A program made the translations under genes and the position numbers. From Salvelinus alpinus (taxonomy: Eukaryota; Chordata; Actinopteri; Salmoniformes; Salmonidae): a stretch of DNA of 64,000 bases. Under the pieces are notes generated by a model. The model ran no database searches. It was given only the letters and a program-made list of their open reading frames with translations, and was not told where the DNA came from. Where the stretch lies: assembly GCF_045679555.1 (NCBI RefSeq), contig NC_092094.1:11229319-11293318 (forward strand), in the 5' to 3' direction. Shown piece after piece: positions 13,201 through 19,200 of this stretch (positions within the stretch are counted from its first letter, which is position 1; every line of letters starts with the position of its first letter).

Positions 13201-16200
13201 CAACTACCCACATCACTCTCAGCCATCTCCCCTTCTCCAACTACCCACATCACTCTCAGCCATCTCCTCTTCTCCAACTACCCACATCACTCTCAGCCAT
13301 CTCCCCCTCTCCAACTACCCACTCCACTCTCAGCCATCTTCCATTCTCCAACTGCCCACATCCCTCTCAGCCATCTCCCCTTCTCCAACTACCCAAATCA
13401 CTCTCAGCCATCTCCTCTTCTCCAACTACCCACATCACTCTCAGCCATCTCCCCCTCTCCAACTACCCACTCCACTCTCAGCCATCTTCCATTCTCCAAC
13501 TGCCCACATCCCTCTCAGCCATCTCCCCTTCTCCAACTACCCACACCACACTCAGCCATCTCCTCTTCTCCAACTACCCACATCACTCTCAGCCATCTCC
13601 CCTTCTCCAACTACCCACATCACTCTCAGCCATCTCCTCTTCTCCAACTACCCACATCACTCTCAGCCATCTCCCCCTCTCCAACTACCCACTCCACTCT
13701 CAGCCATCTTCCATTCTCCAACTGCCCACATCCCTCTCAGCCATCTCCCCTTCTCCAACTACCCAAATCACTCTCAGCCATCTCCTCTTCTCCAACTACC
13801 CACATCACTCTCAGCCATCTCCCCCTCTCCAACTACCCACTCCACTCTCAGCCATCTTCCATTCTCCAACTGCCCACATCCCTCTCAGCCATCTCCCCTT
13901 CTCCAACTACCCAAATCACTCTCAGCCATCTCCCCTTCTCTAACTACCCAAATAACTCTCAGCCATCTCCCTTTCTCCAACTACCCAAATCACTCTCAGC
14001 CATCTCCCCTTCTCCAACTAACCAAACTACCCAAATCACTCTCAGCCATCTCCCCTTCTCCAACTACCCAAATACTCTCAGCCATCTCTCCTCTCTAACT
14101 ACCCAAATCACTCTCAGTCATCTCCCCTTCTCCATTTACCCAAATCCCTCTCAGCCATCTCTCCCTCTCCAACTACCCACATCACTCTCAGCCATCTCCC
14201 CTTCTCCAACTACCCACATCACTCTCAGCCATCTCCCCTTCTCCAACTACCCAAAACACTCTCAGCCATCTCCCCTTCTCCAACTACCCACATCACTCTC
14301 AGCCATCTTCCCTTCTCCAAATACCCACATCACTCTCAGCCATCTCCCCTTCTCCAAATACCCACATCACTCTCAGCCATCTCTCCCTCTCCAACTACCC
14401 ACATCACTCTCAGCCATCTCCCCTTCTCCAAATACCCACATCACTCTCAGCCATCTCCCCTTCTCCAACTACCCACATCACTCTCAGCCATCTCCCCTTC
14501 TCCAACTAACCAAACTACCCAAATCACTCTCAGCCATCTCCCCCTCTCCAACTACCCAAATCACTCTCAGCCATCTGCCCTTCTCCATCTACCCAAATCA
14601 CTCTCAGCCATCTCCCCTTCTCCAACTACCCAAATCACTCTTAGCCATCTCCCCTTCTCCATCTACCCATATCACTCTCAGCCATCTCCCCTTCTCCAAC
14701 TACCCACATCACTCTCAGCCATCTCTCCCTCTCCAACTACCCACATCACTCTCAGCCATCTCTCCCTCTCCAACTACCCACATCACTCTCAGCCATCTCC
14801 CCTCTCCAACTACCCACATCACTCTCAGCCATCTCTCCCTCTCCAACTACCCACATCACTCTCAGCCATCTCCCCTTCTCCAACTACCCAAAAACTCTCA
14901 GCCATCTCCCCCTCTACAACTACCCAAATCACTCTCAGCCATCTCCCCCTCTCCAACTACCCCCACACTCTCAGCCATCTCCCCTTCTCCAACTACCCAC
15001 ATCACTCTCAGCCATCTCCCCTTCTCCAACTACCCAAATTACTCTCAGCCATCTCCCCTTCTCCAACTATCCAAATCACTCTCAGCCATCTCCCCTTCTC
15101 CAACTACCCAAAAACTCTCAGCCATCTCCCCCTCTCCAACTACCCACATCACTCTCAGCCATCTCCCCCTCTCCAACTACCCCCACACTCTCAGCCATCT
15201 CCCCTTCTCCAACTACCCACATCACTCTCAGCCATCTCCCCTTCTCCAACTACCCAAATTACTCTCAGCCATCTCCCCTTCTCCAACTACCCAAATCACT
15301 CTCAGCCATCTCCCCCTCTCCAACTACCCACAACACTCTCAGCCATCCTCCATTTTCCAACTACCCAAAACACTCTCAGCCATATCCCCTTCTCCAACTA
15401 CCCACATCACTCTCAGCCATCTCCCCTTCTCCAACTACCCACATCACTCTCAGCCATCTCCCCTTCTCCAACTACCCAAATCACTCTCAGCCATCTCCAA
15501 CTACCCACAACACTCTCAGCCATCCTCCCTTTTCCAACTACCCACATCACTCTCAGCCATCTCCCCTTATCCAACTTCCCAAATCACTCTCAGCCATCTC
15601 CCCTTCTCCAACTACCCAAATCACTCTCAGCCATCTCCCCTTCTCCAACTACCCACATCACTTTCAGCCATCTCCCCTTCTCCAACTACCCACATCACTC
15701 TCAGCCATCTCCCACCATAGCTAAAATAACTTTCTGAGAAATGAGAATAGAGAAGAGGAATAAATAAATGCTGTGAGAAATGTCCACATACAGGAGCTGT
15801 CCATTCAGGCTGTTGTTAATAAGTGTGTTGCCATTCAATCATGTCTAACAGGATTTGCTCTTCTTTGTGTATTTAGGACACTGACGTTATGTTTTGTTAC
15901 CTTCATCAGGATGTTAATCTGGGAGGATGGTAGTCTAGAGATCATATGTTGTGTTACCTTCATCAGGATGTTAATCTGGGAGGATGGTAGTCTAGAGATC
16001 ATATGTTGTGTTACCTTCATCAGGATGTTAATCTGGGAGGATGGTAGTCTAGAGATCATATGTTTTGTTACCTTCATCAGGATGTTAATCTGGGAGGATG
16101 GTAGTCTAGAGATCATATGTTGTGTTACCTTCATCAGGATGTTAATCTGGGAGGATGGTAGTCTAGAGATCATATGTTGTGTTACCTTCATCAGGATGTT

Positions 16201-19200
16201 AATCTGGGAGGATGGTAGTCTAGAGATCATATGTTTTGTTACGTTCATCAGGATGTTAATCTGGGAGGATGGTAGTCTGGAGATCATATGTTTTGTTACC
16301 TTCATCAGGTTGTTAATCTGGGAGGATGGTAGTCTAGAGATCATATGTTTTGTTACCTTCATCAGGATGTTAATCTGGGAGGATGGTAGTCTGGAGATCA
16401 TATGTTTTGTTACCTTCATCAGGTTGTTAATCTGGGAGGATGGTAGTCTGGAGATCATATGTTTTGTTACCTTCATCAGGATGTTAATCTGGGAGGATGG
16501 TAGTCTAGAGATCATATGTTTTGTTACCTTCATCAGGATGTTAATCTTGGAGGATGGTAGTCTGGAGATCCTGAATGTGACCAGGGCAGACGAGGGGCTC
16601 TACACCTGCTTCGCTGAGAACGACCGGGGCAAGGCCAACAGCACAGGCTTCCTCTCTATCACAGGCAAGCTGCATGCACACACACAGACAGACAGACAGA
16701 CAGACAGACAGACAGACAGACAGACAGACAGACAGACAGACAGACAGACAGACAGACAGACAGACAGACAGACAGACAGACAGACAGACACAACACATAC
16801 ACAGACACACACAGACAGACAGACACAACACATACACAGACACACACAGACAGACACAACACATACACAGACACTACACACACACACACACACTGCCCTT
16901 CTCTGAACCAGACTCATAAACTCATAAACTCATTATTCACACCTAGAAACACCCATCTGACCTCCAGCCCGTCAGCCTTTTCTGACTGAGTTATGGACCT
17001 CAAGGGACCAGTGATGAGGGTTAAGAGCCTTGCTCAAGGGCACAATGGCAATAGGTAGCACATGGCATATTGAAGCCAGTAACCCTCTGGCTGCTGGTTC
17101 ATCTCTGGGATTCAAACTGGGAAACATTGTTACTGAGTCGCCTTGAGGCTAGCACCACTTCAACATCATCACTACCATCGCTCGCACACATAACGCCTAT
17201 CTGACCTTCATCAGTCTTATGAGACTGAGTTATGGAGTCTCAGGGGGTGTGGTCTCAGGGGGCGGGGTCTCAGGGGGCGGGGTCTCAGGGGGCTTTGTCT
17301 CAGGAGGTTGGGGTCTCAGGGGGCTGGGCTTCAGGGGGCGTGGTCTCAGGGGGTGGGGATTCAGGGGGCGGGGTATCAGGGGGTGGGGTCTCAGGGGGCA
17401 GGGTCTCAGGAGGTGGGGTCTCAGGGGGCGGGGTCTCAGGGAGCCAGTAGTGATACATGCTATCACTCTATTACTCACCCCTCATAGCCAACACCTCAGA
17501 TGAGATCTGACAAGGTTTTTTTTATAGGATGTACAATTTTGAACTAAATGCACTGTAGACAGATCCCTGTTGTGATCAATACCCTACCCTTCACCCCCCT
17601 CTACTGGTCAGATATGATCACTGCCACTGCTCCACCTCTGGTTCACATCAGTACATTCTTACACAGACTCTCTCACTCATAGGATGTTGGTGGCACCTTA
17701 ATGACTGGAGTGGAATTAGTGGAATGGTATTAAATACACCAAACACATGGTCTCCAGGTGCCATTCCATTTACTCCGTTCCGGCCATTATTATGAGCCGT
17801 TCTCCCCTCAACAGCCTCCACTGTTCTCACGCTATACAAACAACAAATATTTCCCTACGTTTTAGGCCTGAAAGACCAGGCTGGTATTAGTGGAGAATTC
17901 TTGATCACGGTACATTAAATGCAGATTTTTTTGCACATTGTTCTTCTTATCGGCAAGAACACACACATTGCTATTAAGGCTGACCACCCCTTTTTCTCAC
18001 CAGAGGCCACTAAGATCACCTTGGCTCCGTCCAACGCGGACGTGACGGCGGGCGAGAGCGCCAGCATGCAGTGTGCCGCATCACATGACTCAACGCTGGA
18101 CATCACGTTCGTCTGGGCCATGGACGGCCGCTCCATCGACTTCGACCGGGACGGATCCCACTATGAACGCAACCCGGTAAGAGAAAACATGTCAACGTTT
18201 TTTATAATCAATCCTCAGGTTGTTTTTAACATAAATAATCGATAATATTTCAACCGGACGGTAACCTATTAAATACAAGACTTCAGGGTTGGATTTCCTC
18301 AGGTTTTCGCCTGCAAAATCAGTTCTGTTACACTCACAGACAATATTTTGACAGTTTAGGAAACTTTAGAGTGTTTTCTATCCTAATCTGTCAATTATAT
18401 GCATATTCTAGCATCTGGGCCTGAGAAATAGGCAGCTTACATTGGGAACGTTATTTTTCCAAACGTAAAAATACTGCCCTCTAGCTTCAAGAGGTTAAAA
18501 AAGCAGGCTAGAAATCTTAGTGTTGACTGTTCAAATCCCGGGTATGGCTGAAATATTACTTTGGTGTAGTGCTGTACTACTTATAATACCAGCTGATCCC
18601 TGATACCCATTTAGCGTCAGTTACTAAAAGACCCATGGACTGCTGGCTGCTGGTGCCCTGTATACTATATCAGTTTAACTGCAGTTTCCCTTCTCATACA
18701 TCATGAATGACGTGACCCACTCTCTGCCAGAACAGTCTCAGCACTAAGCAGCAGCTAGCATTCATCATCTGTCATTCCACAGACTGGAGTTATGCACAAC
18801 TCTCTATAATGGTTCTGATTGATGACCTTGCATAGCTGTGTACAAGGCTTACTTCTCCCTCTCATAAAATTGCCACGTTCTCCAGTTGATGTTATTTATG
18901 TGTCATCAGAATAGTAGAACTCATTAGAGTAAGTGAGTTAATATAATGCTTCTATTATATTCTCAATGGGAGCATTTCATACATGTGAAAATATGGCTGT
19001 CATTGTAAATAAGAAGTTGTTCCTTACTGACTTAAAGCTGGAATCCGTAGTGGTGAAACTGCCACGTCTGTTTGGAATATTACAACAACAAAGAAGTTAC
19101 CGCAAACAACCAACACAGTTTTCTCCCTTAGACATCATTTCACGAGCAATAGAACAGTGGAATATGTACTGCAACTATTTTTACCACGCTGCGCTCCACC

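Follow-up and report, generated by a model that had tools for sequence, protein, structure and literature searches.

Tandem repeats that take in a splice site have been described in several genes. In human CBS, a 31-bp VNTR, c.1444_1467+7(16_21), has a unit made of the exon end and the intron start, and is present in 16 to 21 copies in people (PMC2630376). In intron 18 of ABCA7, the VNTR consists of 25-bp units that each start with a donor, and one unit is retained in ∼2% of transcripts (PMC5954066), hence the splice sites of an array can be used. Tandem splice sites of dual specificity produce an in-frame ladder in UBC (PMC10809524), and recent duplicates among human genes have internal tandem repeats at their exon-intron boundaries that alter splicing (PMC2812944).

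The array analysed here lies in contactin-1 of Salvelinus alpinus, in a window (the whole stretch of DNA examined, 64,000 nucleotides, C9:11229319-11293318), and its minisatellite unit contains a real splice site, which is an acceptor and not a donor. As in CBS, each copy carries the splice site; the CBS repeat is on the donor side and is known to vary in copy number, whereas the contactin-1 array is on the acceptor side, has its likely branch point outside and is known from one assembly. The ABCA7 array is also on the donor side, is out of frame and far longer, and skipping of the following exon is influenced by its length. As in the contactin-1 array, the tandem units of UBC are in frame and have a splice site where they join, but the AGGT sites of UBC serve as donor and acceptor at once inside a coding repeat, whereas the contactin-1 array is a duplicated old intron end, in which AGGT is confined to two of the 12 units (8 and 10) and the remaining ten have AGGA. 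The repeats of human duplicated genes create new introns (PMC2812944), whereas the contactin-1 intron predates its array. The same intron is found in the copy of the gene on C15, where it has its own 43-bp array and lacks the 57-bp one.

Introns that arose from tandem arrays, with splice sites in the tandem repeats, were reportedly described by Zhuo et al. in 2007. The contactin-1 intron differs from these, since the array does not include its donor, at 12020, and the C15 copy has the intron but lacks the array. Scanning and proximity have also been studied with constructs in which splice sites were duplicated and identical sites compete within one transcript; the contactin-1 array differs in being natural and twelve-fold, with unequal branch-point contexts. 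In the literature on boundary or acceptor VNTRs, salmonids and contactin, covered by titles and the starts of abstracts with few subscription papers, no acceptor-type case was recognised, which does not imply absence from print. Donor-side boundary VNTRs are already known from CBS and ABCA7, and the acceptor form is a new variant.

A protein search placed salmonid contactin-1 proteins at the top of the relatives of the host gene, and the two exons flanking the intron, taken together, found contactin-1, 7ol2, as the best solved relative with an E of 4e-62. This bears out the sequence-only reading, made before this analysis, which had assigned the array to an Ig5 exon of contactin-1 and had taken the last unit for the real boundary; the exon starting at 16537 indeed continues in frame from phase 2. 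Of the fourteen exon pieces that could be placed, ten were joined, the first ones of the series (7078-30752), and they form one open protein. They stay open with the array added, the 627 nt from 15910 to 16536 being 209 codons with no stop, as that reading had also proposed for the maximum gain. With acceptor 1, 2, and so on to 12, the exon would be 755, 698, ... 128 nt long. At 57 bp, the unit length is divisible by three, and it has no stop in the frame of the gene; the chance of a unit being both is ∼0.18, and the property is not remarkable. It was rejected as a sign of selection for this reason, and one of the paralog arrays described below has a 31-bp unit. The GC donor of the Ig5b exon (gcaagc, window 16664-16670) is common to the C15 copy, and the C11 paralog has GT.

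Table 1. Features of the contactin-1 array and its surroundings, in window positions.
Feature	Position	Strand	Basis or remark
57-bp minisatellite, 12 units	15888..16570	+	TRF and units written out
First exon bases of the 12 acceptors	15910, 15967, 16024, 16081, 16138, 16195, 16252, 16309, 16366, 16423, 16480, 16537	+	
CTGAC, likely ancestral branch point (inferred)	15881..15885, A at 15884, 26 nt before 15910	+	U2-pairing score; 5' of the array, outside the unit
GATCAT at the junction of units 11/12, best branch-point candidate for the true acceptor	16510..16515	+	Score 3.0
Upstream Ig5a exon	11870..12020	+	Donor GTCAGC; phase 2 at its end
True Ig5b exon of contactin-1	16537..16664	+	GC donor (CAG/gcaagc)
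Intron ending in the 57-bp array	12021..16536	+	Two further arrays inside it, with units of 38 bp (12090-12511) and 37 bp (12961-15713)

TRF reported the array with period 57, 12.0 copies, 97% matches and a score of 1282, and both this and the written-out units agree with the composition proposed earlier, 12 x 57 bp of cntn1 intron end plus Ig5 exon start. Each unit combines TATGTTTTGTTACCTTCATCAG, 22 nt from the intron end, with 34 nt from the exon start and a single junction base, and holds a complete acceptor (tract and CAG) with the exon start behind it. Only five positions vary among the 12 units, and units 1-11 have a mean pairwise divergence of 2.6%. As a correction to the sequence-only reading, the last unit is an inexact copy, reading TTG (Leu) against TGG (Trp) in the remaining 11. 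Units 1-3 are identical letter for letter to units 4-6, and this exact internal duplication of 171 bp makes it likely that the copy number is labile. The same identity would be expected if reads had been mis-joined in the assembly, in which case the copy number or the array itself would be an artefact. This is very improbable, given that the variants are spread over the units, that the genome has no second place or stray copy of the array, and that the region has many other arrays and the paralog has boundary arrays too. Two other candidates were rejected. Microexons or recursive splicing inside the units would have to rely on weak donor matches (at most 6/9, against 7 for the real donor), and a dispersed repeat is not indicated by the genome search, which can miss common words but in which the array DNA matched only two places, itself and 38 bases of the homologous exon on C15.

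This C15 exon has a single unit, and TRF finds no 57-bp array there. Over the gene, the C15 region and the window are collinear, and by inference the former is therefore taken as the copy from the salmonid whole-genome duplication. Given this assignment, the array is young and later than the duplication, because the duplication copy has one unit. The array also keeps the older codon at the variable Trp/Leu position, since the upstream units and the C15 copy have TGG, the contactin-1 of 7ol2 has Trp, and so do most relatives (149 Trp, 7 Leu and 1 Arg among the 157 readable of 182, with 25 unreadable by the pattern). The Leu of the true exon, being found elsewhere, is probably tolerated.

The gene around the array is rich in minisatellites. 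Counting arrays with units of at least 10 bp in at least three copies, they cover 27.4% of 7078-37330 as against 5.5% of the matching part of C15, a fivefold gap. They avoid exons, overlapping 42 of 1835 exon bases where 502 were expected and touching two of 24 exon edges where 6.6 were expected, with values as low in 2.7% of circular shifts. The second touched edge is that of an exon which a pyrimidine-rich array enters by 8 nt at 24327. Arrays are thus common in this gene and yet avoid exons, and one that sits at an exon edge has rarely survived what is otherwise a frequent process. Other repeats were seen in passing. An acceptor-like 31-bp unit (TTTTTATCTTAACAGG), repeated 2.9 times at window 33956-34046, lies inside an intron, away from any exon found. 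On C9, ∼12.35 kb before the start of the window, the donor of another contactin-1 exon lies within a degenerate 20-bp repeat of two copies. The public contactin-1 model P0004 ends in residues matching an intronic 40-bp array at window 35609-36116, so that this automated model seems to have passed over the donor at 35590 and continued into the minisatellite.

The window array is not a one-off, as a contactin-1 paralog on C11 has two donor-side arrays. When the genome was searched with the exon peptide, 150 of 293 candidates were scored and 13 matches obtained, of which 12 were fetched and, with L025 left out, 11 were compared. An array overlaps the exon in two of the 11 loci, the window and a C11 locus, L021 (beside 18264332-18264451). 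At L021 1606-1695, the homologous exon of the paralog carries a 21-bp array of 4.3 copies, ACTCTCACCATCACAG followed by GTAGT across the boundary, at the opposite exon end from the array in the window. Its units are 100% alike, each with CAG/GTAGT, and are open in frame. In the 30 kb examined around this locus, 10 exon-like blocks were found, and the Ig4 exon of the C11 paralog (L031 8844-9606) has a donor-side array of 24.6 copies of a 31-bp unit, made of the last 13 nt of the exon and 18 nt of the intron. The real donor, in the first copy, is GTGAGT and most copies have GTTAGT; GATTGGTTAGT occurs exactly at 17 places. A 39-bp array (L031 7477-8730) stops ∼10 nt before the other end of the paralog Ig4 exon. 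Among 20 exon-like blocks of the C15 copy, none has such a boundary array, and two touch pyrimidine-rich runs.

The 12 acceptors were compared by two measures, which rank the first and the last in opposite directions. The first is a matrix of tract and AG context, built from 25 acceptors of the two gene copies with the C15 Ig5b acceptor included. All 12 array acceptors are weak by it, with scores of 3.3 to 6.4 where 22 of the 25 training sites lie above 6.4; the first acceptor is lowest, at 3.3, and the last has 5.8. The second is a branch-point scan of the AG-free zone extended by 15 nt, for candidates no closer than 15 nt to the exon, with our own scoring based on U2 pairing. The best match before unit 1 is cactgAc at 26 nt, with a score of 5.5, whereas before units 2-12 it is agatcAt at 23 nt, with 3.0, which is the GATCAT of the repeat junction, also present before acceptors 2-11. 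For the 24 control acceptors, which come from 12 exons in two copies and hence are not independent, the median was 4.5, with four at 5.5 or more, two below 3.0 and one at 3.0. The C15 copy has two candidates scoring 5 (cactcAc, 19 nt; ttgtaAc, 25 nt). A GTTAC, possibly a branch point as well, stands 11 nt before all 12 acceptors, closer than the 15-nt minimum and hence outside the scan, and the exonic TTAAT, 50 nt before each next acceptor, was rejected as a branch point, as AGs intervene. In the alignment, CTGAC of the window stands opposite CTCAC of C15, and no CTNAY occurs inside the array; on these grounds the duplications copied the tract, the AG and the exon start, but probably not the branch point. 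The sequence-only reading had described 12 near-equal acceptors, which is not supported as stated, because the likely ancestral branch point precedes unit 1 only and units 2-12 have a weak junction substitute.

Scanning from the branch point predicts use of the first acceptor, at 15910, while exon definition predicts 16537 or its near neighbours. If scanning prevailed, CTGAC would still be used and the whole array would be kept as a 755-nt exon, with 209 extra Ig5 residues, a changed or impaired protein and the C15 copy as backup. The best branch-point match with normal spacing, found before unit 1 only, the lack of CTNAY in the array and the frame open throughout all speak for this outcome. 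We nevertheless consider it unlikely, as 755 nt is long for an internal exon, the first acceptor is the lowest of the 12 by the matrix, no such protein was found among those scored or fetched (cluster representatives), and the protein does not change faster.

Comparable use of several acceptors is another possibility, and would yield a set of isoforms with between 0 and 11 additional 19-residue units, as a length-variable coding VNTR. The acceptor sequences are nearly identical, every unit keeps the frame, and laddering is known for the tandem splice sites of UBC (PMC10809524). The unequal branch-point contexts and the lack of any such isoform among the proteins retrieved make such a ladder improbable. 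The coding VNTR had been raised in the earlier reading, and so far the proteins lend it no support: none of the 182 related proteins fetched has two copies of the array motif, which is weak evidence because they are cluster representatives. In a protein search with 1487 hits among 7995 scored candidates, no array peptide was found among the best 120 listed; a full-length form with all units would lie beyond the length limit of that search. No array peptide was found with a full-length query scored over the array region, where 90 hits among 7996 scored candidates reached at most 51 bits and covered 10-18% of it, or with a 178-aa query (31 hits of 7993 scored, E up to 1e-8).

Decay of the gene is not supported either, with the ten exon pieces intact and the private residues at an ordinary level, 4 in 395 sites in this copy against 4, 6 and 4 in P0004, P0005 and P0014. 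Two of the four lie in the 42-residue exon adjoining the array, too few to mean anything. The ordinary rate of protein change favours a mostly normal product, although a young array may have lacked the time to matter, and may be too young for gene decay to show.

We give about an even chance to a young boundary minisatellite in a working gene copy, with the last few acceptors mainly used and leakage to upstream ones. It would have grown by tandem duplication, later in multi-unit steps, across the intron-exon boundary of one contactin-1 duplicate, copying the tract, CAG and exon start and leaving the best branch-point-like motif behind, 5' of unit 1. The gene probably still works, and enough transcripts would then be spliced from 12020 to the final acceptor or to one shortly before it (exons of 128 to 299 nt), most of the array being removed with the intron. 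For their branch point, these acceptors would depend on the weak A in the GATCAT of each repeat junction. Leaky splicing is therefore predicted, in which part of the transcripts use acceptors further upstream in the array and Ig5 is lengthened by 19 residues or a multiple of this, with no frameshift. Consistent with this explanation are the single genome place with the array, the one unit on C15, the exact duplication, the avoidance of exons by minisatellites, the intact exons, the ordinary private-residue count, the lack of an array peptide among the proteins scored or fetched and the higher matrix score of the last acceptor over the first. Against it stand the poor branch-point context of the true acceptor, where that of the first is good, and the weakness of all 12 acceptors by the matrix.

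A wider proposal, possible but on the doubtful side, is that the branch point left outside would make the farthest unit, unit 1, the strongest acceptor, and the array would become an in-frame coding VNTR of up to 209 residues in a neuronal adhesion protein, included whole or as an isoform ladder, with boundary minisatellites a recurrent route from intron to variable exon in this genome. A single natural transcript of this locus brings together twelve 3' splice sites that hardly differ and have similar tracts, with a good branch point before the first only, a situation so far mostly built in constructs. It is a natural test of choice among many nearly identical splice signals, between scanning and exon definition, and the donor-side arrays of the paralog, one with an in-frame and one with a frame-shifting unit, allow the mirror test.
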